From positions 1 to 46,105 of the forward strand of contig DUQX01000118.1 of the NCBI GenBank assembly GCA_012837615.1: a stretch of DNA of 46,105 nt, written 5' to 3'. Origin of the DNA: Bacillota bacterium (GTDB lineage Bacteria; Bacillota; Dethiobacteria; DTU022; UBA8154). Shown one piece after another: positions 19,075 to 38,437 of the stretch. The notes below the pieces were generated by a model, which saw only the letters and a program-made list of their open reading frames with translations, searched no databases and had not been told where the DNA came from. Every line of letters begins with the position of its first letter. Position 1 is the first letter of the stretch. The translations under genes and the position numbers were made by a program.

Positions 19075-19227
19075 AAAGGAGGTGAAAAACAAGGACAACA
19101 ATAAAAAAGTTCTTCTGATCCATTTGGATTCTTTTATAGGGGGTGATAAAACTATTTATTTTTAATGGAAAATTTCAAACTACGGCATGCTTGCCTATAC
19201 TTGCCTATAAGAGAGGTGTAAAATAAT

Positions 19228-19326
19228 ATGTCCAGCGGATGGCTTGCCTGGTGGTGCGTAGGAATAGCCAGTATCATCCTTACTGTGGTTGGGACCATCA
19301 TAACGATTGTGGGGTGGAAAGAATGA
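19228..19326 (+). CDS. 32-residue single-helix membrane microprotein coupled to the symporter
   Basis: This short frame encodes 32 residues: MSSGWLAWWCVG, then a hydrophobic helix (IASIILTVVGTIITIVGW), ending KE. GAGAGGTG lies 9 bases before its ATG, and its TGA overlaps the symporter ATG as ATGA, the classic arrangement for translational coupling. The pattern (Trp-rich start, one membrane helix, two charged residues at the end) suggests a small accessory subunit of the transporter. Known small partners of sodium:solute symporters (DUF4212, DUF997/YhdT) are about 80 residues with two helices, so this is a shorter type I do not recognise. Confidence 0.75.
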   Translation: MSSGWLAWWCVGIASIILTVVGTIITIVGWKE

Positions 19327-20891: not shown

Positions 20892-20916
20892 TATATAAAG
20901 GATTATGCAAAATAAT

Positions 20917-20986
20917 AAAAAAGCGGTTTCACTCTTCAACAGTTTATCGGTTTTCTGTTAGAATATGTGAACCGCTTTTTTATATA
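20917..20986 (+). terminator. terminator of the symporter operon
   Basis: AAAAAGCGGTTTCAC pairs with GTGAACCGCTTTTT (one bulged base); the loop holds an inner AACAG/CTGTT stem. The A/T-flanked stem may work from both strands. Confidence 0.8.
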
Positions 20987-21204
20987 AAAAACTAATATTG
21001 TTTTATGCGGCTATAGTTAGTATAATATAGGGTAATACCAGCAATATACTTTGTTACTCCCATCATATCACAAGCTTTACTCATGGTTAATCCCTATTAA
21101 GCCAAAAAAGGAATTTACTCAATATGTATAGAATTGTTTATTATAAGTAGTTTACCCTAATAGTTTTAAATTGCTTCTGAGTAATAATTCGCATGGAGGT
21201 TGAA
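20987..21204 (+). other. intergenic region before the sensor kinase
   Basis: AT-rich, no gene seen. TTGTTTATTATAAG around 21136 may hold a weak promoter for the kinase; nothing close to full consensus. Confidence 0.3.
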
Positions 21205-23184
21205 ATGCTGAAAAATATAAATATCTGGAAAAAAATCTTCATCGGCTTTGTAATTATCGCAGCAGCGCTTCTTCTTATAACCGGCCGGGTTACTATAAAA
21301 CAATCTTATAATAATGTTAAACAACAGGCGGAATTGACTTTAAACAATAATTTAAACTCAGCCAACAGGCAGCTAAACCGCAGGCTTGACAATATATTGT
21401 TCATTTTAAATTTTTTATCAAAAAGCCACGATATTTTCAAGGATAGGATAATAAATCATGATTTAGATTCACTGCATGAGTTTATTATTAAATTTAAAAA
21501 AAAATACGGATTAAGCTTTGTTGTGATTACAGATCCTTCCGGGAAAATAATATCCAGTGCCAACAATACTCATTCTTACGGAGAAAAGTTAAGTGAAGAT
21601 AAATCTCTTTTATTATTTCTGAATGGAAAACAGCTAAAGGGGATTACAGTATTAAACGAAAATTTTTTAATCAGGGAAAACCTTAGCGAACAAGCATATG
21701 TTAAAATAATGCCTACTTCTGAAGCCAGATCTTATGAAATAACTGAAGAAAGAAGAGGCATAGCCTTAACAGCTTCTGTTCCGGTATACAACGACAATAA
21801 CGAACTTATCGCATTTCTGTTGGGAGGGGAACTTCTAAACCGACATACTGCTTTTGTTGATGAGGTTACGGAAGCGCTTCAGGTTTCTACAACTATTTTT
21901 CTAGATGATCTGCGTATAGCAACTTCTAGCCGTTTGGATAACGGGGATCGAGCAATTGGAACAAGGGTTTCGGAAAAAATTGCCAATATAGTACTGGATC
22001 GTGGAGAACGTTACCTAGGAAGGGAATTTATATTGGATCAATGGTATTTAACCGCCTATGATCCGATCTTTAATATCAATAACGATGTGATAGGGATTTT
22101 ATATGTTGGAATACCGGAAGAACCTTTTATCCAGATGAGAAACGACGCCATGAATAGCTTTATCTCGGCAGCAGTCCACAGCATTATGATAGCCACTTTA
22201 TTAGCATTTTTCATCATCAGGTCCATTACAAATCCCCTCCATAATCTTATAGATACCATGCAAAAAGTGGAACACGGCGATTTATCCCATAGGTATTCCC
22301 CAAAAGGGAAAAACAGGAGGGAGGAGAAAGAAGAAAATCCTTTTAGTGAAAACAGTCCTGCAAAACCCAATAACACCAAGTTATTGCCGGCATTTAAAAG
22401 CCGGGATCAGAGAGGAGATGAAATACAGCAGCTGGGGAGTTTTTTCAACAAGATGATGGACAGTTTACAGGCGAACTGGCAAAAAAATCAGGAATTAAAA
22501 GCCCAATTAGAAGAAAAAGAGAGGATGCGCCTTTATCTGCTGCAGAAAATTATCACCACCCAGGAAGAAGAGAGAAAAAGGATCTCCCGCGAGCTTCATG
22601 ATGAAACAGGCCAGTCACTAACAGCTCTGATACTTGGATTGAGGCGGATCCAGGAAGCAGATGATATTAACGAAGTTAGGAAGCTTGCAGGCGATTTCAG
22701 GGAAATTGTTCATAAAACGCTGGAGGAAATTCAGTGGCTTTCCTTTGAATTAAGACCGAGCGCTCTTGATGATCTGGGTTTATATGCAGCCATAAATCGC
22801 TATATAAAAGAACTCTCACGTTATTCAGACTTTAATATAGAATATGAACAGCAAAAGTGCAAAGATATTAGAATGAATTCTGCAGTGGAGACTACAGTCT
22901 ATAGAATAGTACAAGAAGCGCTTACCAATGTAATAAGACATGCTGAGGCTCAAAATGTAAGAGTATCCCTGAAATGTGATCACAATAATATTGAAGCAAT
23001 CATAGAAGATGACGGCAAAGGATTTGATTATACTATATTACAAAAAGATCAACATGCTCTTGGACTTTTTGGGATGACTGAAAGGGCCTCGTTGGTAGGC
23101 GGAAAGCTTGTTATAGATACTGCACCTGGAAAAGGAACCCGGATAACATTAAGTATCCCTGAGGTTACGAAATTCAATAACTGA
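21205..23184 (+). CDS. membrane sensor histidine kinase, cache-HAMP-HisKA_3-HATPase (NarX/DegS class)
   Basis: The 659-aa product has an N-terminal membrane helix (about 10-30), an extracellular region of ~280 residues resembling a cache sensor (FVVITDPSGKIISSANN, then TSSRLDNGDRAIGTRVS and GILYVGIPEEPFIQMR), a second membrane helix (HSIMIATLLAFFIIRS), HAMP, a charged linker, a HisKA_3 dimerisation domain with phospho-acceptor His465 in RISRELHDETGQ, and a HATPase domain (VQEALTNVIRHAEA, IEDDGKGFD, LGLFGMTERA). It should sense an extracellular small molecule and phosphorylate a NarL-type regulator. None is adjacent; the orphan one at 2182-2838 is a candidate. The ATG at 21205 is preferred because GGAGG lies 5 bases before it. 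Confidence 0.92.
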   Translation: MLKNINIWKKIFIGFVIIAAALLLITGRVTIKQSYNNVKQQAELTLNNNLNSANRQLNRRLDNILFILNFLSKSHDIFKDRIINHDLDSLHEFIIKFKKKYGLSFVVITDPSGKIISSANNTHSYGEKLSEDKSLLLFLNGKQLKGITVLNENFLIRENLSEQAYVKIMPTSEARSYEITEERRGIALTASVPVYNDNNELIAFLLGGELLNRHTAFVDEVTEALQVSTTIFLDDLRIATSSRLDNGDRAIGTRVSEKIANIVLDRGERYLGREFILDQWYLTAYDPIFNINNDVIGILYVGIPEEPFIQMRNDAMNSFISAAVHSIMIATLLAFFIIRSITNPLHNLIDTMQKVEHGDLSHRYSPKGKNRREEKEENPFSENSPAKPNNTKLLPAFKSRDQRGDEIQQLGSFFNKMMDSLQANWQKNQELKAQLEEKERMRLYLLQKIITTQEEERKRISRELHDETGQSLTALILGLRRIQEADDINEVRKLAGDFREIVHKTLEEIQWLSFELRPSALDDLGLYAAINRYIKELSRYSDFNIEYEQQKCKDIRMNSAVETTVYRIVQEALTNVIRHAEAQNVRVSLKCDHNNIEAIIEDDGKGFDYTILQKDQHALGLFGMTERASLVGGKLVIDTAPGKGTRITLSIPEVTKFNN

Positions 23185-25676: not shown

Positions 25677-27011
25677 ATGTACTGGAATAAAGAATTTGAA
25701 ACGATGCCCTGGCAGGAAATTCAAAACTATTGGCTTAGTAAGCTTCCTTCCTATTTGGAATACTTAAAAAACAAATCTCCCTTTTATGAAAAGCGCTTGT
25801 CTTCTATTGCAAGTAAAGATATTAAAACAATGGATGATTTAAAGAAAATTCCTTTTTTAACAAAAAACGAACTTCGCGATGCTCAAGCGGACAGCGACAG
25901 AAAGAATCCCTTAGGTAAAATTCAGGTTGTAGATACAGAAGATATTGTGCAGGTGATTTCATCTTCTGGAACTTCAGGCCGTCCGGTCTACTATGGAGCT
26001 ACCCAAAAAGACGTTGAAGTATGGCGAGATGCTATAGCTAATGTATATTATACTGCAGGGGTACGGAAGGATGATATCGTAGCCCATACTACAGGTATTC
26101 CTTTATTCGCTGGCGGAGCAGCTTATTTTGAAGCAATTAGAAATATCGGGGCAATGACTGTTTGGCCGGGCAACCTATCGACTTCCAGGATGCTGGAAAC
26201 AATCAGAAACCTCCACTGTAATGTAATTCAGGCAACCGTATCATTTAATCTTTACCTAGCGGAGCGTTGCCAGGATGCATTGGGGGTTGACCCCCGGGAA
26301 TTAGGTATAACCAATATTATAGGGGGCGGTGAACCCGGCTTAGGGGAAGAAGCGATTCGCCAAAAACTAAAAGATGCCTGGAATGCGAAAACAGTCCGGG
26401 AAATTATGGGCCTTGCAGATGTGATGCCGGGTATGTGGGGCGAATGTGAAGCCGAAACAGGCATGCACTTTAATGTCCAGAAATATGTAATGGTTGAGTT
26501 GATTGATTCGGAGTCGGAAGAACATTTGCCTTGGGAAACAGGCGTTGTCGGCGAGCTTATTTATACGAATTTTAGCAGGGAAGCTACACCAATTTTAAGA
26601 TATCGATCTGCGGACCTTGTCCGTGTGGAGGGTATATCCTGTTCATGCGGCAGAACGTCTCCGAAGATTCGTTGCATCGGCAGGGCGGATGACCTCCTGA
26701 TATTTAAAGCTATGAACGTATATCCTTCCGCAATTCGCGATGTGGTGCTCAAGCATTTTGAGAAGTACCTGACAGGCCAATTGCAGGTAGTGAAAGATCA
26801 TCCCGAACAGGTTCGCTTTGATAATGCAATACCTGTAGATATTGAGATCTTGCCGGAACATGAGCAAGCCAATTTAAAACAACAAATTGAAAAAGTTGTA
26901 AGGGATACTTTAAATATTCGCATAGATGCAAATCTTGTTCCCCCGAACACCATCCAAAGGACGCAGTATAAATCACCACTGATCCGAGTTCGGGAAAACA
27001 ACAATAAGTAA
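25677..27011 (+). CDS. PaaK-family (phenylacetate-CoA ligase-like) adenylate-forming enzyme
   Basis: The 444-aa product activates a carboxylic acid as acyl-AMP and usually transfers it to CoA. It begins with the PaaK-typical segment YWNKEFETMPWQEI and PFYEKRL, has the ATP-binding loop SSSGTSGRP near residue 100, GGGEPG and the adenylate motif near 220, LRYRSAD and a Cys-rich segment CSCGRTSPKIRCIGR, and ends with a C-terminal lid (RADDLLIFKAMNVYP). Phenylacetate itself is not proven; aromatic or branched acids are possible. AGGAGAGG precedes the ATG. Confidence 0.88.
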   Translation: MYWNKEFETMPWQEIQNYWLSKLPSYLEYLKNKSPFYEKRLSSIASKDIKTMDDLKKIPFLTKNELRDAQADSDRKNPLGKIQVVDTEDIVQVISSSGTSGRPVYYGATQKDVEVWRDAIANVYYTAGVRKDDIVAHTTGIPLFAGGAAYFEAIRNIGAMTVWPGNLSTSRMLETIRNLHCNVIQATVSFNLYLAERCQDALGVDPRELGITNIIGGGEPGLGEEAIRQKLKDAWNAKTVREIMGLADVMPGMWGECEAETGMHFNVQKYVMVELIDSESEEHLPWETGVVGELIYTNFSREATPILRYRSADLVRVEGISCSCGRTSPKIRCIGRADDLLIFKAMNVYPSAIRDVVLKHFEKYLTGQLQVVKDHPEQVRFDNAIPVDIEILPEHEQANLKQQIEKVVRDTLNIRIDANLVPPNTIQRTQYKSPLIRVRENNNK

Positions 27012-27143
27012 AAATAAAGAATAAGGCTACAAAGCCGGTATAAGCCCTAAGATTATTGCTACGCCATTTAATATCTAGCGGTAACCAAAGAGAACAAGGG
27101 CAATATTGAATAATTAAACCCTCTCGCGTAGGATATTCGTAAT

Positions 27144-27187
27144 AAAAAACCCTTCAAGAGCGTTTCTTGCTCTAAGGGTTTTTTTAT
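27144..27187 (+). terminator. terminator between the converging CoA ligase and polymerase genes
   Basis: AACCCTT-C-AGAGC pairs with GCTCT-AAGGGTT; A residues precede and T residues follow, so it can serve both converging genes. Confidence 0.85.
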
Positions 27188-27270
27188 ATACAAAGCAATT
27201 TTTACCTTCCTTTTTTATCAAACAAAGATAAAACAAGCACACTTAGCGCTTGTTTATGCAATCTAAAACT

Positions 27271-28506
27271 TTAAGCCTCATGCCCTCCAATTTTATTGGC
27301 TCGATCAAAAAGCAATCCGCCTTGAGAAAGTGAAGCTAATCTAAATATGCTTGTTATCCCGTAACGTTTCCGGACTGAATCCACCGCCTTGCTCAAGGCT
27401 ATTTTTTCTTCTTTTTTATCAAACAGGGAAAGCTGAATTTCCTGCAAATCAGTTAAACCTGAAAGACTAATTCCCAAAGCTCTTACTGGTTTGCGATCCC
27501 AATAAGCATAAAACAGCTTTAGCACGTACGGATAAACGTCCATTGTTACAGCTGTAGGCTCCGACATTTTGACCTGTCTGGAAAAACCCGTTGGAAAATC
27601 AAAATCAGCACCCCGGCAGTATACATTAACAACCCGGCCAACCTTGCTAAGGCTTCTAGCGCGCCGGCATACTTCCTCGGTAATCTCCAAAAGCACAACT
27701 TCAATTTCCTTTTTAGATCTGTAATCCCTGGGTAAAGTTATAGAATGCCCTACGCCTTTACGAATATCTTTCATGCTTATTGAAGGCTCAATTACAGAAT
27801 AATCAATTCCGTGAGCATTGAGCCAGAGAATCTCTCCATTAATACCCCACCTGCGTTTTAAATCCTCTTTTTTTAGCGTAGCCAGATGCCCTATTTTTCT
27901 AATCCCGATATTTAAAAAATTGCGCTCCATTCTCGATCCTACGCCGAATAAATCTCTAATAGGAAGAGGCCAGGTATGTTTAGCATAATTATCATGTGTT
28001 AGTTTAAAAAAACCGTCTTTGTTTTTTTTAGCAAATCTATCACAGGCCATTTTAGCTTGCAAAGGATTTTCTCCGATACCGACTCTACATCTGATATTAA
28101 CTTTCTCCCATACTTTCTTAATTATAAGTTTGGCCATATCTTCAGGAGTCCCAAACAACTTTTCACATCCGGTCATATCCAGGAACTGCTCATCGATAGA
28201 GTAGGGGGCTACCCGATCACTGAAACCATTAAATACTTCCGTAATTTTCAAAGACACATCTATATAATCCCTCATGTGTGGCCTGACAAAAATTATCCCG
28301 GGACATAATTTTGTACATTCCCATGCAGCCATACCTGTTTTTATACCATAAGCTTTCGCTTCTTTGGTGGCGGCAAGGACAATTCCATGTCGCAGCTTCG
28401 GATCACCACATACAGCAACAGGCTTGCTACGCAAAGAAGGATTTTTAGCAACTTCCACGCTGGCATAGAAAGATTCCATATCTGCAAGCAAAATAATTTT
28501 TCTCAT
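27271..28506 (-). CDS. Y-family DNA polymerase, UvrX/YqjW (PolY2)-like
   Basis: The 411-aa product is a translesion polymerase. The palm motif ADMESFYASVE is near the N-terminus and the second catalytic motif reads YSIDEQFLDMTG, with Gln in place of the Ala of DinB, as in the UvrX/YqjW branch. Little-finger sequences follow, and a canonical beta-clamp-binding motif QLSLF lies about 50 residues from the C-terminus. The ATG at 28506 is chosen because a promoter and LexA box lie just upstream of it and inside the longer open frame. Expression should rise after DNA damage. No partner gene (YqjX-like) is adjacent. Confidence 0.9.
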   Translation of the reverse strand: MRKIILLADMESFYASVEVAKNPSLRSKPVAVCGDPKLRHGIVLAATKEAKAYGIKTGMAAWECTKLCPGIIFVRPHMRDYIDVSLKITEVFNGFSDRVAPYSIDEQFLDMTGCEKLFGTPEDMAKLIIKKVWEKVNIRCRVGIGENPLQAKMACDRFAKKNKDGFFKLTHDNYAKHTWPLPIRDLFGVGSRMERNFLNIGIRKIGHLATLKKEDLKRRWGINGEILWLNAHGIDYSVIEPSISMKDIRKGVGHSITLPRDYRSKKEIEVVLLEITEEVCRRARSLSKVGRVVNVYCRGADFDFPTGFSRQVKMSEPTAVTMDVYPYVLKLFYAYWDRKPVRALGISLSGLTDLQEIQLSLFDKKEEKIALSKAVDSVRKRYGITSIFRLASLSQGGLLFDRANKIGGHEA

Positions 28507-28520
28507 TAGCCTTACACCTA

Positions 28521-28534
28521 CGAACTTATGTTCT
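28521..28534 (-). promoter_or_regulatory. LexA (SOS) operator
   Basis: CGAACTTATGTTCT contains a perfect GAAC-N4-GTTC core, the Firmicutes SOS box, directly downstream of the -10 element of the polymerase gene, where LexA would block initiation. Confidence 0.8.
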
Positions 28535-28537
28535 ATA

Positions 28538-28566
28538 ATTATAGCTCTTTTAGGAGTATAAGGCAA
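28538..28566 (-). promoter_or_regulatory. promoter of the UvrX-like polymerase gene
   Basis: On the - strand TTGCCT (28561-28566) and a perfect TATAAT (28538-28543) have a 17-base spacer. Confidence 0.7.
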
Positions 28567-28748
28567 TAATAAGTGTGGTGGAAAATTGTTAGCGTTAAAC
28601 ACACCCACATAGCTTAATTCTATTAAATATGCGAAAAAATTAATGCCTAATTTTAAAAGATTTTCCTGCCCTTACGTCTCACCGATAAGCCTGAAAGTTT
28701 TTTAAATGCTTTAATTCTGTTTCTAAAACATTTTTTTAAAATATCCTA

Positions 28749-28777
28749 TTGACAATAATTTTTTTACAGTGTAGTAT
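28749..28777 (+). promoter_or_regulatory. promoter of the GntR-led catabolic cluster
   Basis: Perfect TTGACA (28749-28754), a 17-base spacer and TAGTAT (28772-28777) about 95 bases before the regulator gene. Confidence 0.55.
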
Positions 28778-28803
28778 ATTTAGTACATAGTATACGGTCG
28801 ACA

Positions 28804-28823
28804 GCATACCGTCGCCGGTATGC
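28804..28823. promoter_or_regulatory. candidate operator of the GntR/FCD regulator
   Basis: GCATACCG, spacer TCGC, CGGTATGC: a perfect 8-base inverted repeat just downstream of the promoter. A related GTATACGGTCGAC lies immediately to its left, giving a repeated ATAC(C/G)GTCG theme. The GGTAT/ATACC half-sites resemble GntR-FadR family operators. Confidence 0.55.
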
Positions 28824-28871
28824 CGGTTTATTTTGCTAAACGGGAATAGAATTTAAAATACCTGAAAGGGG

Positions 28872-29570
28872 TTGATTAACTTTAATAAGGGCGACTATAA
28901 AATAGAGCGTGATTTAATTGTTGATCAAATATTTGAAGTGCTAAAAAAACAAATTTTGGCCGGGAAATTGAAACCAAATGAAAGGTTAATTGAAAAACAA
29001 ATTGCAAATTCTTTTAATGTCAGCAGATCCCCGGTACGTGAGGCACTAGCAAAATTGGAACATGAAGGGTTGGTATACAGAAAAAAGCAATACCGGCGGG
29101 TAGAAGTTATTACAGAAAAAAAGATTGTTGAGCAATACCAGTTATGGCAAATGATTGAAGGTTATGGTGCGCAACTTGCCTGTCAAAATGTTGAAGATAA
29201 GGACATACAGAAACTGGAAAACATTTGCCAAAAAATGGAGTCAAATGTTGAGGATTTAGCAATGTATAGGAATTTAAATTTATCATTTCATGAACAACTA
29301 GTCCAGAGCTGCCCCAATAAAAAAATTATAGAAATGCATACACAAGTTATCACCCACAACCGCTGGGTTATGAATTTTACCCTAATGGATGAAATGGATC
29401 CCAAACTATCTATCAGCGACCACAGGAACATTTTGGAGGCGTATAAGGAAAAACAACTTGTAGCCTTGGAAAATTATATCCGTTCCCATATAGAAAATGC
29501 CTTAAAGCGGGTAAAAAACAATTTCAACCGGTACTCAGAATACGAGGGTTCATCTGAAGATATCTTATAA
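28872..29570 (+). CDS. GntR-family transcriptional regulator with FCD ligand-binding domain
   Basis: The 232-aa product has an N-terminal winged helix (about 15-80; GKLKPNERLIEKQIANSFNV, then SRSPVREALAKLEHEGLV) and an all-helical FCD domain (about 90-220) that binds small carboxylates. It precedes the molybdenum hydroxylase genes by 21 bases and should control the cluster, probably through the inverted repeat at 28804-28823. The start is uncertain: the TTG at 28872 lies almost on the AAAGGGG that would serve it, and no ATG is available nearby; an ATT start a few bases later is possible. Confidence 0.88.
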   Translation: MINFNKGDYKIERDLIVDQIFEVLKKQILAGKLKPNERLIEKQIANSFNVSRSPVREALAKLEHEGLVYRKKQYRRVEVITEKKIVEQYQLWQMIEGYGAQLACQNVEDKDIQKLENICQKMESNVEDLAMYRNLNLSFHEQLVQSCPNKKIIEMHTQVITHNRWVMNFTLMDEMDPKLSISDHRNILEAYKEKQLVALENYIRSHIENALKRVKNNFNRYSEYEGSSEDIL

Positions 29571-29591
29571 AAATAAGGGAGTGTAAACAAC

Positions 29592-31811
29592 ATGTATGCT
29601 TCTAGTACAAAGACCAGAATGGTTAATGCTTTAGAAAAGGTTACCGGACAAGCAAGATTTACAGAAGATCTGGAAATACCCGGTTTGCTCTATGGAGTTG
29701 CTGTTTATAGCAATATTTCAAAAGGCTTTGTCCGCAAGGTTGATCTGGAAGCTGCACAAAAGGTTCCTGGTGTCAAAAAGATTCTTTTACCGGAAAATAT
29801 ACCTGGAAGAAACCTGCTGGGTAGTCATGAATTAAGCCATCCGATAATAAGCAGCAAAATCAATTATTTTGGTGATGCAGTTGCTCTTATTGCTGCCGAG
29901 TCAGAGGAAATTGCGAGAAAAGCTGCCTGCCTGGTAAAAGTTGACTATGAGGAAAAAGAAGGCATATATACCATAGACGAAGCCATGGAAAACGGCGATT
30001 TGCTATTTAACCATTTGCAGCATTTCCACGGCGACATTGAAGCCGGCTTTGAAAAATCTGATGTAATAATAGATGGAACCTATTTTACCCCTTTTATAGA
30101 CCACATATATTTAGAACGGGAATCTGCCTTAGCCCTTCCGGAACCAAATGGCCGCCTTACAATTTATGGTGGATGCCAGGAACCCTATCACATGCCTACG
30201 GTTGTTTCTGAGGTTTTGAACTGCCCCAGGGAGCAAATCCGATTTATTGGAATGTCCATGGGAGGGGCATTTGGGGGTAAATCAGAGGATTCTTTTATGG
30301 TAGCTTGCCGGGCCGCGCTCCTGGCTGTTCATTGTATGAGGCCTGTTTTGTTCGTGGTTTCCCGGGAAGAATCCATGCGAAGTTCTACAAAACGCCATGA
30401 GGCAAAACTGTATTATAAGATAGGTGCCAGCAAACAAGGGGAATTAACAGCTCTGGAAGCCCGTGTGTACCTAAACAAGGGAGCTTATTTAGGATCTGGA
30501 GGAAAATTGCCCCCGGCATTAAACCGAGTATATTGGCATTATACAGGGCCGTATCGCATACCCAACACTGTTCTTAACGCTTACCTGCTGCGCACAAACA
30601 ACCCTTGCAGCGGCCAGATGCGTTCCCCAGGTGTTCCCCAGATCTGTTTTGCTGTGGAATCCATAATGGATCAATTGGCAGAAGCCCTGAACATGGATCC
30701 TCTAGAATTTCGCCTAAAAAATGTTCTTGAAGCTGGAGAAGTTACAGCTAACGGGATATATCTTAAAGACAGTGTAGGAATTAGGGAAGCCATACAGAAA
30801 GGATCACGCTTGTTTGACTGGGATAGTCGTCGATCACGGGGATCACAGGGTGATACTCAAACTCTTAAAGGGGTAGGAATGGCTTCTTCTTGGCATGGCA
30901 TAAGCTACGGCAATGAAAAAGATACCGCCGAGGCACGTATTTTTTTGCTGCACAACGGCAAATTTTTGATCAGAACAGGGCTTGTTGAACTTGGGCAGGG
31001 TTTGCAAACTGTTTTAGCCCGGGTGGCATCTGAAGAGTTGGGTGTGCCAATGGAGCAGATTACCATTACCAGCCCTGATACGGATATAGACCCCGATAGC
31101 AAAAATACAACATCTTCGCGCGCTACAGTAGTGGGCAGTTTGGCAATCAGGCTTGCAGCCCAAGAAGCTATCAAAAATCTTATCAGCCATGCAGCGAGGC
31201 TAAAGGGTGGGGCGGCAAGTGATTTTTTCTGGAAAGGTGGCATTGTTCACAGCAAGAACAGCGCCTGGAGTATAAATTTAGCCGACCTTGCAGCGCAAAC
31301 TGGAAGTGAAAGGCCACTTTTGGTTGGCAATGGCAAGTGGCAAGATAAAGCAGGGAAAAAAGGATATACAACTTACGGTTATGCGGCTCATTTCGTGGAG
31401 CTGGAGGTAGACAGGAAAACAGGTTATATAAAACTTCTGCGGTTGGTTGTTGCCCAGGATGTGGGCAAGGTGTTAAACTACCAAACTTTGAAAGGCCAGG
31501 CTATAGGCAGCGCTATGATGTCAGCAGGCTATGGATTGCTTGAAAACATTATCCTGGAAAAAGGTAAGATTTTAAACCCCAACCTTCGCGACTATCGCAT
31601 CCCATTGTTTACAGAATGTCCTTCTATAAAATGTGTTTTCATTGAAGATCCTTGTTCAGAATATGTATTTGGAGCCAAGGGCGCAGGGGAACCTTCTGCA
31701 GTGCCTACAGCCTCTGCCATTGCAAATGCATACTATAACGCCACTGGTTTAAGGATATATAGACTGCCTATTACCCAAGAAAACATAACGGGTGGTAAAA
31801 AACAGGCATAA
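29592..31811 (+). CDS. molybdenum hydroxylase (xanthine dehydrogenase family) large, molybdopterin-binding subunit
   Basis: The 739-aa product is the catalytic subunit of a three-subunit XDH/CO-dehydrogenase-family hydroxylase that inserts water-derived oxygen into an (often N-heterocyclic) carbon. MSMGGAFGGKSED, GQMRSPGVPQ, LVELGQGLQTVLARVA and the C-terminal FGAKGAGEPSAVPTASA (with the expected catalytic Glu) are the cofactor and active-site segments. There is no CO-dehydrogenase-type active-site Cys loop, and the RSPG segment differs from the RGFG of true xanthine dehydrogenase, so the substrate is probably not xanthine. The 2Fe-2S and FAD subunits follow. Confidence 0.9.
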   Translation: MYASSTKTRMVNALEKVTGQARFTEDLEIPGLLYGVAVYSNISKGFVRKVDLEAAQKVPGVKKILLPENIPGRNLLGSHELSHPIISSKINYFGDAVALIAAESEEIARKAACLVKVDYEEKEGIYTIDEAMENGDLLFNHLQHFHGDIEAGFEKSDVIIDGTYFTPFIDHIYLERESALALPEPNGRLTIYGGCQEPYHMPTVVSEVLNCPREQIRFIGMSMGGAFGGKSEDSFMVACRAALLAVHCMRPVLFVVSREESMRSSTKRHEAKLYYKIGASKQGELTALEARVYLNKGAYLGSGGKLPPALNRVYWHYTGPYRIPNTVLNAYLLRTNNPCSGQMRSPGVPQICFAVESIMDQLAEALNMDPLEFRLKNVLEAGEVTANGIYLKDSVGIREAIQKGSRLFDWDSRRSRGSQGDTQTLKGVGMASSWHGISYGNEKDTAEARIFLLHNGKFLIRTGLVELGQGLQTVLARVASEELGVPMEQITITSPDTDIDPDSKNTTSSRATVVGSLAIRLAAQEAIKNLISHAARLKGGAASDFFWKGGIVHSKNSAWSINLADLAAQTGSERPLLVGNGKWQDKAGKKGYTTYGYAAHFVELEVDRKTGYIKLLRLVVAQDVGKVLNYQTLKGQAIGSAMMSAGYGLLENIILEKGKILNPNLRDYRIPLFTECPSIKCVFIEDPCSEYVFGAKGAGEPSAVPTASAIANAYYNATGLRIYRLPITQENITGGKKQA

Positions 31812-31856
31812 AACCAGGGTTTGCCATAAATTTTATGGGATAAGACGGGAGGTGCT

Positions 31857-32360
31857 TTGCGGGACATGAAACATTTAATTAATTTCAAAGTTAACGGCAT
31901 TAGTCATTCAATGGAAGTTACATCTAACACTACTTTGCTTGCATTGTTAAGAGATAGTCTAAAGCTGAAAGGTACCAAAAAAGCCTGTGGAACCGGTGAC
32001 TGCGGGGCTTGTACAGTTTTGGTAGATGGCAAGGCGGTTAATTCTTGTATCTATCTGGCCCTTAATATTGACGGCAAGGAAGTTTTAACAGTTGAAGGCC
32101 TGTCTAAAAATGGAAAATTGGATTTTCTTCAAGAAGCTTTTATAGACGAAGGGGCAGTCCAGTGTGGGTATTGTACACCAGGTATGCTAATGTCGGCCAA
32201 AGCTTTGTTGGATGAACATCCTAACCCTACAGAAGAACAAATCAGGATAGGTTTAGCCGGCAATGTGTGTCGTTGTACCGGTTATGAACAGATCATCCAG
32301 GCTATTAAAACAGCGGCCAAGAAACGTAGCGAATATGAATTCCAGGATAAGGAGAGCTAG
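31857..32360 (+). CDS. molybdenum hydroxylase 2Fe-2S subunit
   Basis: The 167-aa product (164 if the ATG at 31866 is used) carries two 2Fe-2S clusters. The plant-ferredoxin-type N-terminal domain has Cys residues in ACGTGDCGACTV and NSC, and the C-terminal helical domain has CGYCTPGM and CRCTGYEQI. It relays electrons between the molybdenum centre and the FAD subunit. GGGAGG lies 4 bases before the TTG at 31857 and 13 before the ATG at 31866, so the start is ambiguous. The order here is large, 2Fe-2S, FAD. Confidence 0.93.
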   Translation: MRDMKHLINFKVNGISHSMEVTSNTTLLALLRDSLKLKGTKKACGTGDCGACTVLVDGKAVNSCIYLALNIDGKEVLTVEGLSKNGKLDFLQEAFIDEGAVQCGYCTPGMLMSAKALLDEHPNPTEEQIRIGLAGNVCRCTGYEQIIQAIKTAAKKRSEYEFQDKES

Positions 32361-32362
32361 GT

Positions 32363-33241
32363 ATGGCTATATTAAATACTTTCCACTTTCACAAACCGGT
32401 TTCTCTTAAGGAAGCAGTAGAATTGCATGAAAACTACGGACCCCAGGCGAGTTATATAGCGGGGGGAACAGATGTAATAGTGGGGTTAAAAAAGAACAAG
32501 CTGGAACCGGGACACTTGATTTCCTTGCTAAATATTCCAGGATTAAATCATATCAGTTCGGATGGGAAGGAACTGCACATTGGTGCATTAACAACACACC
32601 GGCAGTTGGAGATGAATGAAGAAATAGGGCAGAAGTTTTCCGTACTTCACGATGCCGTTAAACAGATTGGTTCCGTTCAAATTCGTAATGTAGCGACCTT
32701 GGGGGGGAATCTGTGTAGCGCCCTGCCTTCCGCCGATTCTGCTTCTCCTTTGCTGGTTTTAAATGCAAAAATTAAAACTGCAGGGGTTAAGAACAGGATT
32801 TTGGCCATAAATGATTTTTTTGTCGGGCCGGGCCAAAGTGCATTGGAACCATCGGAAATTGTAACAGAAATCATTATTCCCTACCCCCACCAGCGTTCCG
32901 GTGCAGCATATGTCAAGTTGGGTAGGCGTGGGGCAATGGAGATTCCCCTTATTGGCGCAGCAGTATATTTTGAAGTTGACGAACTTGGTTTTTGCACCAA
33001 GGCCCGGGTGGCTTTAACGACTGCAGCGCCTACCCCTATACGCGTCCCCAATGCTGAAGCTGCCCTGGAGGGTAAAAAGTTGAATCAAGATGTTTTTCGT
33101 TCTTGCGCTGAAAGGGCCCTTTTGGATGCTTCGCCCCGTACAAGCTGGCGAACCACGGCAGAACATCGCCGGGCCGTAATTCCTGTACTAGTTGAAAGGG
33201 CATGTGCTATAAGCCTGGCACGCATAGAACAATCGTCTTAA
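32363..33241 (+). CDS. molybdenum hydroxylase FAD-binding subunit
   Basis: The 292-aa product is a CoxM/XdhB-type flavoprotein of the vanillyl-alcohol-oxidase FAD fold. YIAGGTDVIVGLKKN near residues 35-50 and VATLGGNLCSALPSADSASPLL near 110-130 are the FAD-binding segments; a C-terminal CO-dehydrogenase flavoprotein domain follows. It passes electrons to an external acceptor such as NAD or ferredoxin. It starts 2 bases after the stop of the 2Fe-2S gene. Confidence 0.93.
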   Translation: MAILNTFHFHKPVSLKEAVELHENYGPQASYIAGGTDVIVGLKKNKLEPGHLISLLNIPGLNHISSDGKELHIGALTTHRQLEMNEEIGQKFSVLHDAVKQIGSVQIRNVATLGGNLCSALPSADSASPLLVLNAKIKTAGVKNRILAINDFFVGPGQSALEPSEIVTEIIIPYPHQRSGAAYVKLGRRGAMEIPLIGAAVYFEVDELGFCTKARVALTTAAPTPIRVPNAEAALEGKKLNQDVFRSCAERALLDASPRTSWRTTAEHRRAVIPVLVERACAISLARIEQSS

Positions 33242-33309
33242 ACTTTCGAGTGTCTTGATGCAAGGTTACGGCAATTGCAAACATACTGGGTGAAGGGGGA
33301 GTATTGCAG

Positions 33310-34293
33310 ATGAACAACCTGTCTATGACTTTTGCTTGCGTGGACAATGTCAGAATAGGCCAAATAATAAGAAAACTGGTGAGCCCCCAAAATATTGACT
33401 TGAACATTCTATTATTTGAAAACTACTCCGATCTATTTCAAGAAGTCTTTTCCAAAAAAAAGTATGATCTTGCGGAAATATCTTTGTCCGGTTATATCAA
33501 AGCAAAATCGGAGGGCAATCAAACTTTCCTTGCTATACCTGTTTTTCCATCAAGAATGTTTAGACATTCATTTATCTTTGTTAATAAAAATTCCAATATC
33601 AAGGAACCACACCAGTTAAAAAATAAAGTGGTTGGGGTCCCCGATTACACCTCCACCGCCAGCCTTTGGATCAAAGGTTTACTTAGTGACCAATACGGGG
33701 TAAAACCCGAGGAGATTAGGTGGTTGCAGGGTCCCCTTGATGATATTAATGAAAGGCAGAAAGTGGGCATTGTTTATAAAGATGTATCTATTGAAGAAAC
33801 CGGTGAAGGTAATACATTAAACCAAATGCTGTTGGAAGAAAAGATACAGGCTATTGTATCCCATAAAATACCTTCTTGCTTTAGAAGTAACCCCGGGACA
33901 ATCCAAAGGTTATTTACAAATTATAAAGATTTAGAAGTTGATTACTATAGAAAAACCAAGATATTTCCCATCATGCATACCGTAGTTATCAAAAATGAAA
34001 TTTATCAAAGGCATCCTTGGGTTGCTTTAAGCTTGCAAAAAGCTTTCAGTCAGGCTTTGGCGCATTCTTTGGAGGAATTGAATAAAACAGATGTTTTAAA
34101 TACTAACATAATATGGGAAAAAACTGCTCTAGAAGAACAAAACTCAATTTTCGGGGCCAACCCCTGGTCTTATGGGATTAAAAACAATTACCACGTTCTG
34201 GATACGGCGGCAAGATATTCATATGAACAAGGTTTATCCAAATGCAGAATGACGGTGAAAGAGCTGTTTTGCCCAACTACATTAGAAACCTAG
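33310..34293 (+). CDS. 4,5-dihydroxyphthalate decarboxylase-like protein (periplasmic-binding-protein fold)
   Basis: The 327-aa product matches the 4,5-dihydroxyphthalate decarboxylase (Pht5) group. I recognise FEN/EVFSKKKYDLAEISLSGYI, IPVFPSRMFRHSFIFVNKNS, then VGVPDYTSTASLWIKGLLSD and a C-terminal NPWSYGIKNN with YSYEQGL. The fold is shared with transport binding proteins, but there is no signal peptide or lipobox, so it is cytoplasmic. In this cluster it could decarboxylate a hydroxylated aromatic or heterocyclic acid; that is inference. ATG 33310 is preferred over TTG 33304 because GGGGGAG then has ordinary spacing. Confidence 0.75.
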   Translation: MNNLSMTFACVDNVRIGQIIRKLVSPQNIDLNILLFENYSDLFQEVFSKKKYDLAEISLSGYIKAKSEGNQTFLAIPVFPSRMFRHSFIFVNKNSNIKEPHQLKNKVVGVPDYTSTASLWIKGLLSDQYGVKPEEIRWLQGPLDDINERQKVGIVYKDVSIEETGEGNTLNQMLLEEKIQAIVSHKIPSCFRSNPGTIQRLFTNYKDLEVDYYRKTKIFPIMHTVVIKNEIYQRHPWVALSLQKAFSQALAHSLEELNKTDVLNTNIIWEKTALEEQNSIFGANPWSYGIKNNYHVLDTAARYSYEQGLSKCRMTVKELFCPTTLET

Positions 34294-34308
34294 AATAATT
34301 AAAAGGGA

Positions 34309-34347
34309 GGGTGTTTTAACATGGGTGGGGGGTGTTCTAACATGGGT
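34309..34347 (+). repeat. tandem duplication of the asparaginase start region
   Basis: GGGTGTTTTAACATGGGT (34309-34326) is repeated with one change as GGGTGTTCTAACATGGGT (34330-34347). The 21-base offset keeps frame, giving two possible starts seven codons apart. Confidence 0.75.
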
Positions 34348-35328
34348 AAAGTAGTGATTTTGGCTACAGGAGGGACGATCGCCTGTAAAAAGGATCCGGT
34401 AACTAATGAAGTAAAACCTTCGTTAACCGGCGAGGATCTGATTGATACTGTTCCCGGAATTGATCAAATTGCCAACTTTGAGGTTGAAAACTTTTCACAA
34501 TTGCAAGGCGCGGCACTTTCTTTAAACCATTTATTAGCCCTGGCTCAAAGGATAAAAAACATATTGGACCGGCCTGATGTTTCCGGGGTAGTAATAACAC
34601 AGGGAACTGATTCTATTGAGGAAACATCTTACTTTTTCGATATTGTAGTTGACAGCGAAAAGCCCGTTATCGTTACAGGATCAATGAAAACACCTTTTTC
34701 CTTGGGTTTCGATGGGCCTGCAAACCTTGCGGATGCGCTTGTTTTGGCTAGTTCGGAGGAAGTACGGGGCATGGGAACTCTAGTTGTAATGAACGGAATT
34801 GTTTACAGCGCCAGATCCGCCGTTAAATCCAACACAATAATTCCTAACGCCTTTACCTCCGTTAATCAGGGAGCCGTAGGACAAGTTGCGGAACATAAAG
34901 TGTACTTATTTGGTGGTATAAAAAAACAGATCAAAATTCCTTTACTACAAAATAATATTGAAAGCATAGATGTTAACGTGGCCTTGATAAAAGCAGTGTT
35001 GGATCCAGGAAATATTCTTCTAAATTGTCTAGTTCAGTCAGGAATAGATGGCATCGTAGTTGAGGCTATGGGTGCTGGCCATGTTCCCCCTTGTATGCTC
35101 GAACCTTTAGGGATTGCGATCGAAAAAAATATCCCCGTAGTAATAACCTCCAGATGTGGCACAGGCCCCTTATTAAAAAACACCTATTCTTTTGAAGGCA
35201 GTGAACAATCGTTAAAAAAATTAGGTGTAATATTTTCAAATTTAACAGGCTTGAAGGCAAGGATCAAACTTATTGCAGCCCTTAGCCTGGGTGAGGAGGG
35301 GATAGCAAAATATTTTAATTCTGAATGA
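34321..35328 (+). CDS. asparaginase/glutaminase-family amidohydrolase
   Basis: The 335-aa product (328 from the second ATG at 34342) is an L-asparaginase-fold amidohydrolase. The first catalytic Thr lies in LATGGTIA, and the second Thr-Asp pair in VITQGTDSIEET; VTGSMKTPFSLGFDGPANLADA and CGTGPL are further family segments. No signal peptide is present, so it acts in the cytoplasm. Its position between a decarboxylase-like gene and RidA suggests it hydrolyses an amide intermediate of the pathway rather than asparagine; that is inference. The lysine of the third motif is not obvious by eye. Confidence 0.85.
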   Translation: MGGGCSNMGKVVILATGGTIACKKDPVTNEVKPSLTGEDLIDTVPGIDQIANFEVENFSQLQGAALSLNHLLALAQRIKNILDRPDVSGVVITQGTDSIEETSYFFDIVVDSEKPVIVTGSMKTPFSLGFDGPANLADALVLASSEEVRGMGTLVVMNGIVYSARSAVKSNTIIPNAFTSVNQGAVGQVAEHKVYLFGGIKKQIKIPLLQNNIESIDVNVALIKAVLDPGNILLNCLVQSGIDGIVVEAMGAGHVPPCMLEPLGIAIEKNIPVVITSRCGTGPLLKNTYSFEGSEQSLKKLGVIFSNLTGLKARIKLIAALSLGEEGIAKYFNSE

Positions 35329-35504
35329 CAGGTTTACAGTAATTACGACGTTGGATAGGTAGTTGGCATTTTCTTCTTTGCGTGCATTCAGTGTGAACAA
35401 CCGAAACAGTATTCAAGTTAATGCCAAGCCAGGAGGGTTTTGTTCATTGCTTATTACAACTGGATTTAATAAATTATTATAAAAACCAGAGGTGAAAACA
35501 AACA

Positions 35505-35903
35505 ATGGCAAATAAAGCATTGGGCACCAAAGAACAGCTGGAATATTTAAAGAAAAATGGTATACCCCTTAGTCCGGCCATAAGATATGGAAACCTAATC
35601 TTTGTTTCGGGACAACCTCCCGTAGATTTAAAAAGCGGGGTATTAATTAGCGGAGATATTGAAAAGCAGACGGAACAAGTTATGGAAAATTTAAAAATAA
35701 CGCTTGAGTCGTCTGGTTCTTCCCTGAATAAAGTATTAAAAACAACGATATATGCAACAAATGCCGGTTTTTATGATCAAATTAATAAGGTATATGCAAG
35801 ATATTTTAACGATAGCAAGCCTGCAAGAACTTTTGTGACAGTAGGTTCGTTTAATACCGGTTTTGATATAGAAATTGACTGCATAGCTTTTGTTGAAGAT
35901 TAA
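35505..35903 (+). CDS. RidA (YjgF/YER057c/UK114) family protein
   Basis: The 132-aa product is a trimeric chorismate-mutase-like protein of the RidA family, which hydrolyses reactive enamines/imines to ketones and ammonia. LIFVSGQPPVDLKSG at about 30-45, the Arg in KPARTFVTVG (the catalytic position of RidA) and the IEIDCIAF end are visible. Within this cluster it would remove an imine formed from a nitrogen-containing substrate. AGAGGTGA precedes the ATG, 10 bases away. Confidence 0.9.
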   Translation: MANKALGTKEQLEYLKKNGIPLSPAIRYGNLIFVSGQPPVDLKSGVLISGDIEKQTEQVMENLKITLESSGSSLNKVLKTTIYATNAGFYDQINKVYARYFNDSKPARTFVTVGSFNTGFDIEIDCIAFVED

Positions 35904-35957
35904 GAAGGACAAACATTATAATTTTATATTCTAGAAAGGACTAAAGGAGGAAGAACC

Positions 35958-36983
35958 GTGAAAAAGCTGTTATGTTTAAGGTCGTTACTGGTTTTGTTGC
36001 TTGTGTTGGGTCTTATTGTTGGGGGTTGCGGTTCTACGGAAAATGCAACAGGAAGCGACGAAGAAAATAACGGGGAAGAAAAGATAACACTTACATTGTC
36101 ATCTTCTTGGCCGGAACATGCTCTACTCGTAGTGGGCATGCCTATATATAAAGAGTTGGTTGAGGAGTTAAGTGAGGGTAAAATTGAACTTAAATATGTC
36201 GGGGGCCCTGAGGCCATTCCAGACTTTGAACACGCCGAAGCCGTAAGGGATGGTACAGTCGATATGAGTTTTACTACGGGTGGTTATTATTTTGATTCAT
36301 GTCCCGAGGCCACTTTCGTAACGGGATATTCGAATATGTCCTATCCAGAAATGAGGGAAACGGGTGCCCATGATTGGCTAAATGAAGTTCATATCAAAAA
36401 AATGAATTCGGTTGTTCTGGGCAATGCGGTCCAGGGTCTAAAATTTGCCGTTTATACCAGGAAACCGGTCTACAAGGTAGAGGACTTCAAGGGGCTGCGT
36501 ATTCGTGCTACAGCTGTCTACCTTCCTATGATGACCGCTTTGGGAGCTGAAGCTGTTGCGTTGCCCGCAGGTGATATTTATTCCTCGTTGGAAAGAGGCG
36601 TTGTTGATGGTTTTTGCTGGAATTCATCCGGTATGACAGATTACAGTCTTCATGAGCAGATCAGTTATGCCATTTACCCCCATTTTATGACCGTAAACAA
36701 CTTTATAATTATAAACCATGATAAATGGAGCTCTTTGCCCGGGTGGGCACAGGATGTTCTAACAGAGGCAGCTATTAAATTAGAAGAGTTGACACCCCCC
36801 ATATTCGAAGAATTTGTTGAAAAAGAGGAAGAAATAATGAAAGCAGCCGGGGTAGAATTCATTGAGCTTGAAGAGCCCGAAAAATTTCTAAAACTAATTG
36901 ATGAAGCAAATGTCGAATATGTAAGGAAAAATTATCCTAATCCGGAAGAAACTCTTAAATACTTATGGAAGCCATTGGAATAA
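35958..36983 (+). CDS. TRAP transporter substrate-binding lipoprotein (DctP family)
   Basis: The 341-aa product is the extracytoplasmic solute receptor of a TRAP transporter. Its N-terminus has basic residues, a hydrophobic stretch and a lipobox (IVGGC, Cys ~25), so it is a lipoprotein, followed by an acidic linker. DctP fold segments are seen in AVRDGTVDMSFTTGGYY and AVYTRKPVYKVEDFKGLRIR (the conserved Arg that binds the ligand carboxylate). It points to an organic acid substrate. The GTG start at 35958 has AAAGGAGG 7 bases upstream. A stem-loop after the gene separates it from the permease genes. Confidence 0.92.
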   Translation: MKKLLCLRSLLVLLLVLGLIVGGCGSTENATGSDEENNGEEKITLTLSSSWPEHALLVVGMPIYKELVEELSEGKIELKYVGGPEAIPDFEHAEAVRDGTVDMSFTTGGYYFDSCPEATFVTGYSNMSYPEMRETGAHDWLNEVHIKKMNSVVLGNAVQGLKFAVYTRKPVYKVEDFKGLRIRATAVYLPMMTALGAEAVALPAGDIYSSLERGVVDGFCWNSSGMTDYSLHEQISYAIYPHFMTVNNFIIINHDKWSSLPGWAQDVLTEAAIKLEELTPPIFEEFVEKEEEIMKAAGVEFIELEEPEKFLKLIDEANVEYVRKNYPNPEETLKYLWKPLE

Positions 36984-37034
36984 AACATCCGACATTGCTA
37001 CAAGAAGTTACCAGGGATTTGTTTTTAGGATCTA

Positions 37035-37060
37035 GTGGGGGAGGGTGGCTACTCCCCCAC
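37035..37060 (+). other. intercistronic hairpin between TRAP receptor and permease
   Basis: GTGGGGGAG and CTCCCCCAC form a perfect 9-base, very GC-rich stem with an 8-base loop and no T-tail. It probably stabilises the receptor mRNA or dampens readthrough, giving more receptor than permease. Confidence 0.65.
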
Positions 37061-37123
37061 TCCTATAGACAAGTATTCTATATATAGCTATCAGGCACTT
37101 TCTATGAGAGGTGATAACGGCTA

Positions 37124-38437
37124 ATGGACTCCGGATTGATTATCGCAATTTTTATTGGCGGGCTAATAATATTATTAGCATTGCGGGTTCCAGTTTTTAT
37201 ATCGCTTATGCTGGTTTCCCTGGCTGTAAGCATTAAGCTGTTTGGTACGGAACCAGGATCCTTGTTGATCGTCAGGACAGTTTTTTCATCGGTACGTGTA
37301 TATTATCTTGTAACTATTCCACTTTTTGCTTTAATGGGTGATTTACTTTTTGAATCTGGAATTGCTATGGGCATGATTAAGTCTATATCTGCGCTTATGG
37401 GCGGGGGCTTTCGAGGGAGATTATGTGTTATTGCCATAGTGGCCGGAACCTTGTTTGGGGTTCTGAGCGGTTCCTCATTAGCAGCGACAGCCATGATCGG
37501 CTCGTTGATGATCCCGGATATGGTAAAAAGTGGTTACAGCAAATCGATTTCCGTTGGATCGGTTATGGGTGCAGGGGGCATGTCCATGGTTATTCCGCCT
37601 AGCGGGGTTGCTATTATAGTAGGAACGTTTGGGCAAATGTCGATAGGAAAGTTATTAATCGGTGGAATTGTTCCGGGGATAATATTAGCTTTTTTTAATA
37701 TTTTGGTTATAGTGCTTTGGGCCGTTTTTATTCCTTCTGCTGCTCCTAAATATGAGGTTCAAACAATAGAATTGAAAGAACGTTTGCGTATTTTCGCGGT
37801 TAATATATTACCGATTCTATCTTTGATGATTTTGTTACTGTTAGCAATATTTTATGGCGTTGCAACCCCCAACGAGGCTGCCGGTCTAGGTGTTATTGGA
37901 GCGCTGGCTATGGTAATTTTGTACCGTAAATTTAGTTGGGGCGTACTAAAAAGGTCTTTGGATAGATCGGTACGCTTAACCGGTATGATCTTTATGGTCA
38001 TGGCTTCTGCTTCAGCTTACACTCAGCTTTTAACGTTAACTGGCGCTACCAAAGAATTTGTTAATTCAGTAATGGCTTTGCCCCTTTCACCAGTTGGTAC
38101 TATGCTCATGATGATTGGAATACTGGTGCTTTTGGGCTGTTTTTTTGAACCAATTTCACTTATTATGCTCGTGTTGCCCCTTTATTTGCCGGTTGCTATC
38201 TCTCTTGGCTACAATCCAATTTGGTTTGGGCTATTGTTTTTAATTAATACCGATTTGGCTGATTTGACGCCACCTTTTGGGCTGTATTTGTTTACAATGA
38301 AAGGGCTTCTTCCCAAATCCTTTACAATGATCGATATTTATAAAGGAGCTATACCTTTTGCCATGGCGGATTTGGCGACAATACTGTGTATGCTGGCGTT
38401 TCCATCTTTGTTTACTTGGCTGCCCAGTTTAATGTAG
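37124..38437 (+). CDS. TRAP transporter large permease subunit (DctM)
   Basis: The 437-aa product is the large TRAP membrane subunit, with about 12 hydrophobic helices. Recognisable segments are GGFRGRLCVIAIVAGTLFGVLSGSS, AAGGMSMVIPPSG-like GAGGMSMVIPPSGVAII, ATPNEAAGLGVIGAL and NTDLADLTPPFGLYLF, which recur in the DctM family. It carries the solute across the membrane driven by Na+ or H+. GAGAGGTG precedes the ATG. Confidence 0.93.
   Translation: MDSGLIIAIFIGGLIILLALRVPVFISLMLVSLAVSIKLFGTEPGSLLIVRTVFSSVRVYYLVTIPLFALMGDLLFESGIAMGMIKSISALMGGGFRGRLCVIAIVAGTLFGVLSGSSLAATAMIGSLMIPDMVKSGYSKSISVGSVMGAGGMSMVIPPSGVAIIVGTFGQMSIGKLLIGGIVPGIILAFFNILVIVLWAVFIPSAAPKYEVQTIELKERLRIFAVNILPILSLMILLLLAIFYGVATPNEAAGLGVIGALAMVILYRKFSWGVLKRSLDRSVRLTGMIFMVMASASAYTQLLTLTGATKEFVNSVMALPLSPVGTMLMMIGILVLLGCFFEPISLIMLVLPLYLPVAISLGYNPIWFGLLFLINTDLADLTPPFGLYLFTMKGLLPKSFTMIDIYKGAIPFAMADLATILCMLAFPSLFTWLPSLM

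Follow-up and report, generated by a model that had tools for sequence, protein, structure and literature searches.

A 32-residue, single-helix microprotein conserved immediately upstream of a sodium:solute symporter gene, and its probable role as an accessory subunit

In a 46,105-nucleotide stretch of DNA from a Bacillota bacterium (contig DUQX01000118.1, hereafter the window), a frame encoding 32 residues precedes and overlaps the gene of a sodium:solute symporter (SSS/SSF family). Sequence comparison confirmed that this micro-ORF is a genuine gene under purifying selection as a protein. Its product is probably an inner-membrane, one-helix accessory subunit of this symporter clade, co-translated with the permease and stabilising or tuning it. 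This reading draws on the presence of the frame upstream of all ten other orthologs, a pN/pS ratio of 0.23, the persistence of the pair across neighbourhoods and the single confidently predicted helix. Small membrane proteins preceding unrelated SSS genes in the order, the loci of the NCBIfam family NF045580 and the precedent of AcrZ point the same way.

The features of the locus are collected in Table 1. The micro-ORF ATG lies 9 nt from its Shine-Dalgarno-like site, and tryptophans occupy positions 5, 8, 9 and 30 of the translation; a purine-rich site 5′ of the start is common to all micro-ORF homologs. An earlier note on this DNA, made from the letters alone, had described a 32-residue frame with a ribosome binding site, a Trp-rich hydrophobic helix and an ATGA overlap, all of which were borne out by the sequence, the translation and AlphaFold2. 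As a control, we considered the 37 long ORFs of the window: just one, the symporter's, has at the corresponding place a hydrophobic micro-ORF equipped with a Shine-Dalgarno. The leader (19075-19227) carries a strong ribosome-site-like stretch, AAAGGAGGTGAAAAAC, near 19078 that no convincing frame follows; at 19190-19209, CTTGCCTATA is repeated in tandem. No Rfam match to an RNA element was obtained in this leader, and its folding was weak (z -1.7 compared to shuffles).

Table 1. Coordinates of the micro-ORF, the symporter gene and their signals in the window
Feature	Position	Strand	Details
Shine-Dalgarno-like site of the micro-ORF, AGAGAGGTG	19210..19218	+	read from the sequence
Micro-ORF, 32 aa	19228..19326	+	translation MSSGWLAWWCVGIASIILTVVGTIITIVGWKE, then TGA
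Shine-Dalgarno of the symporter, GGGGTGG, in the last micro-ORF codons	19311..19317	+	5 nt before the symporter ATG
ATGA start/stop overlap	19323..19326	+	symporter ATG 19323-19325, micro-ORF TGA 19324-19326
Sodium:solute symporter (SSS/SSF family), 522 aa	19323..20891	+	Pfam SSF, E 4.9e-38
Terminator-like hairpin with U tail	20915..20990	+	MFE -25.1 kcal/mol, z -6.8 vs shuffles

A symporter scan of GTDB species genomes provided six orthologs (73-90% identity), and a search of 60 relatives provided four more (52-54% identity); the close matches G000, G001, G007 and G013 among these relatives were the window itself or contigs of the first set and were not counted anew. A homologous frame of 32-41 aa lies directly 5′ of the symporter in 10 out of 10 of the other orthologs (52-90% symporter identity). 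Conservation upstream of orthologous symporters, on which the earlier note had staked its claim, was observed for every ortholog found. The consensus is MSSGW.AWW.V.IAS...TV.GT.ITI.RWKE for the closer homologs and DPWLAWWGVIIASIL.T..GT.YQLRRWND for the more distant ones, with ten invariant positions in the alignment of all 11 micro-ORF sequences.

The distribution of the frame follows that of the symporter. Over 98 genomes of the class, the micro-ORF profile gave eight strong matches, which are the eight genomes with an orthologous symporter; loci L005-L007 hold exactly one copy each. In an even sample of 398 phylum genomes the profile matched three, all already known, and the strong matches of a symporter search (E about 1e-172 or better) fell in those three; the other three symporter matches, 29-31% identical, are without this frame, two of them having other small hydrophobic frames. 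A second phylum sample (299 genomes) returned the Desulfovirgula genome and two matches that are apparently repeats of known genomes. No micro-ORF was seen away from this symporter clade in the class and phylum samples searched.

Neighbouring genes are common to the window and L002 and different in L003-L007. Since the neighbours vary while the pair persists, microprotein and symporter form a conserved unit travelling together. The lineages named for L005-L007 (Desulfovirgula, Armatimonadetes and Moorellales MAGs) suggest that the pair has moved from one lineage to another, with the caveat that these are metagenome bins. At L007:3001-4011 the ortholog match ends at residue 339 and the later ORFs resemble neither the symporter nor any window gene; this symporter may be truncated, or the metagenome contig chimeric. 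A viral origin of the micro-ORF was also considered and rejected: no relatives were found in viral contigs and a PHROGs search with the protein gave no match.

The comparison of synonymous and non-synonymous changes that the earlier note had proposed was run, and it places codons 5-27 under purifying selection: pN/pS, computed from four disjoint pairs, is 0.23 (Fisher p 1.7e-8) with the C-terminal Shine-Dalgarno codons omitted from the test. Over codons 2-27, pN was below pS in 55 of 55 pairs, and the two shifted reading frames gave no purifying-selection pattern. The 3′ end of the micro-ORF has a second task. The homologs carry GAGGTGG, AGGTGG, AGGAGGTGG or AAGGTGG at the place of the symporter Shine-Dalgarno. 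Where a homolog has Arg before its last Trp, this residue is encoded by AGG (9 of 9), a codon that makes up 16 of 158 Arg codons (~10%) in the symporters; these nine homologs are not independent and a p-value is not to be read literally. As the C-terminal RW overlaps the symporter ribosome site, its conservation is unusable as an argument for peptide function or family kinship. The start/stop overlap is ATGA in L002 and L004-L007 and TAATG in L003; in L012-L015 the micro-ORF TAA lies within 1 nt of the symporter ATG.

AlphaFold2, run with seven sequences from the window and the loci, predicted one helix (residues 4-31, mean pLDDT 88.6). The N-terminus of the window microprotein is uncharged and its charges lie at the C-terminal end, so that the positive-inside rule predicts an N-out, C-in topology. 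The most conserved residues (W5, W8, V11, S15, T19, G22, T23) lean to one helix face; their clustering is borderline and no more than suggestive (p 0.059). The favoured course of events would be as follows. Micro-ORF and symporter would be made together by translational coupling, and the helix would insert with its Trp-rich N-terminus outside and its basic C-terminus inside. The Trp/Ser/Thr/Gly face formed by these residues could then pack against the permease, and the packed helix would stabilise it or tune transport, a role like that of AcrZ at AcrB and of KdpF at the Kdp pump.

Several other explanations were weighed against an accessory subunit. The micro-ORF might be mainly a translational-coupling leader, whose translation opens or feeds the symporter ribosome site while the peptide itself does little. 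The ATGA and TAATG overlaps and the Shine-Dalgarno in the last codons, with its constant AGG, speak for such a leader; amino acids 5-27, however, are conserved away from the Shine-Dalgarno while synonymous sites change, and a pure leader would have no need for a Trp-rich helix kept over symporters only 52% identical. We consider this explanation unlikely. We give as little credit to a membrane insertion or folding factor, which would help the symporter to insert or assemble without being a lasting part of the complex: a single helix whose gene comes just ahead of the symporter on a shared message would suit this task, whereas those one-helix partners of transporters for which structures are solved, AcrZ among them, remain bound. 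The earlier note had proposed an accessory subunit or folding factor for the permease. A subunit is the best reading, with a putative interaction, and these data leave the two options of that note inseparable.

The remaining explanations deny any link of the peptide with the permease or any peptide at all. Some type I toxins are short hydrophobic peptides, and a toxin-like or otherwise unrelated peptide could merely be located in the symporter operon; this is highly improbable for a frame that was never found without this symporter clade in the class and phylum samples, is kept across neighbourhoods and matches no phage family. Frames of 32 aa are common by chance, but a chance frame from which no protein is made can hardly be entertained, given conservation in 11 genomes, the excess of pS in every pair and the lack of signal in the shifted frames.

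The permease itself belongs to Pfam SSF (PF00474; 131.5 bits, above the gathering score of 22.8) and scores 124.7 bits with NCBIfam TIGR00813, below the cut-off of 184. It matches the NCBIfam equivalogs (PutP, PanF etc.) far under their cut-offs, and its substrate is therefore without a name by homology. A sequence search for a solved structure gave none at 1e-3, and AlphaFold2, given five symporter sequences, returned an unusable model (pLDDT 34). Micro-ORF and symporter look like a two-gene unit closed by the terminator-like hairpin. Past this hairpin, directly 3′ of the symporter, a Cache-domain sensor histidine kinase is encoded at 21193-23184, with a counterpart also downstream in L002 (71% identity); it may sense the solute transported by the symporter. 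Further on, the region 25677-38437 contains genes for an acyl-CoA ligase-like protein, a GntR/FCD regulator, a molybdopterin hydroxylase subunit and a TRAP-like transporter, a set that suggests catabolism of organic or aromatic acids, the TRAP label being putative. Downstream in L005 and L006 lie genes resembling window 35958-36983 and 37124-38437; read as putative TRAP parts, they would hint at an organic acid substrate for the symporter, too weakly for us to commit to it.

We then turn to whether such a protein was already catalogued. The window microprotein had no match in NCBIfam and at most a sub-threshold match in Pfam, and a profile search against PDB sequences gave none; DUF997, DUF4212, DUF3311 and DUF485 had no Pfam match in it or in its 10 relatives. 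NCBIfam, however, holds NF045580, ‘symporter small accessory protein’ (symport_access), with a model of 33 positions for proteins of ~35 aa. Its function is NCBI's naming, a tested role not having been found in the literature searched. This family scores above cut-off in 34 of 398 phylum genomes and, among 14 control genomes, in Methanosarcina acetivorans alone. Of its loci, 30 were examined: in 29 a distant SSS gene follows closely, and in the remaining one (L067) the contig ends. Genome G008 carries both kinds of micro-ORF, each before its own symporter.

Membership of NF045580 was tried and rejected: the window protein had no match, the best two of 11 relatives reached 16.2 and 16.6 bits against a cut-off of 35, and no match was found in the window's genome. 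Alignment of the two families by hhalign gave a probability of 52% (E 1.4e-4), a score that 1 of 200 shuffles of all columns attained, as did 27 of 200 shuffles of the core with the termini kept. Since shuffles of the latter, composition-preserving control attain the hhalign score, profile comparison leaves homology to NF045580 as no more than a possibility. Judged on sequence, the microprotein is most likely a new family within an already catalogued kind. The description ‘uncatalogued’ in the earlier note thus stands for the sequence (no NCBIfam, PHROGs or PDB-profile match) and falls for the kind, and its statement that known small partners are longer is contradicted by NF045580, with its 33 positions, one helix and place before SSS symporters.

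Within the order, membrane proteins of 30-103 aa also stand in front of other SSS genes; one of them is a genuine DUF997, and others bear a weak likeness to DUF4212 or DUF3311. L016 and L088, an order-level and a phylum-level relative between them, share another conserved kind of micro-ORF (about 34-41 aa; VPLSSWLFI..PA...YI.AIYWYF; no NCBIfam family), which precedes an SSS gene with 29-31% identity to that of the window. Further single-helix micro-ORFs lie directly 5′ of other SSS genes in L023 (30 aa), L026 (36 aa) and L090 (44 aa), also with no matching NCBIfam family. We tentatively propose that SSS symporters could generally be two-part machines, with branch-specific one- or two-helix subunits drawn from several unrelated families; the 32-residue protein would then serve one branch as its obligatory subunit, and its synthesis would keep pace with that of the permease through the shared ribosome-site codons.

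Work on SSS symporters often treats the permease as self-sufficient, and if activity or substrate choice depends on the upstream partners, permease-only assays would mislead. The microprotein is a clear test case: it takes fewer than 100 bases, is strongly conserved, matches no family model searched and can be separated from the symporter by one start-codon change. It is solid and testable, yet expected given NF045580, whose model leaves some SSS-linked microproteins of its size uncovered.

With NF045580 the microprotein shares a single hydrophobic helix, its own Shine-Dalgarno, a position directly upstream of a same-strand SSS gene and a C-terminal Trp. The consensus of NF045580, MLGxxDxxIxxAYLLxIxSxxLCVVYGxxNWN, differs from that of the microprotein, MSSGWLAWWxVAIASIxLTVxGTxITIxRWKE: the near-invariant Cys-Val-Tyr-Gly of its CVVYG...WN motif is absent here, with Thr at the place of the Cys and no Tyr-Gly. 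The NF045580 symporters match the window symporter with E 1e-7 to 1e-19, and the gap to the symporter is usually about 10-50 nt, in contrast to the overlap in the window pair. The longer SSS partners DUF997 (YhdT type), DUF4212/TIGR03647 and DUF3311, and DUF485 (YjcH), which we take to be another, compare as follows: the first three are also membrane proteins encoded directly before an SSS gene, and the longer partners have ~60-100 aa compared to the 32 aa and one helix of the microprotein, with no sequence match between them. AcrZ and KdpF are likewise small proteins of one helix that bind a transporter (AcrB and Kdp, respectively), although they partner different transporter families, AcrZ has 49 aa and no homology with the microprotein is claimed. 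AcrZ is a one-helix modulator bound to AcrB in an N-out/C-in orientation (PMC7267776).
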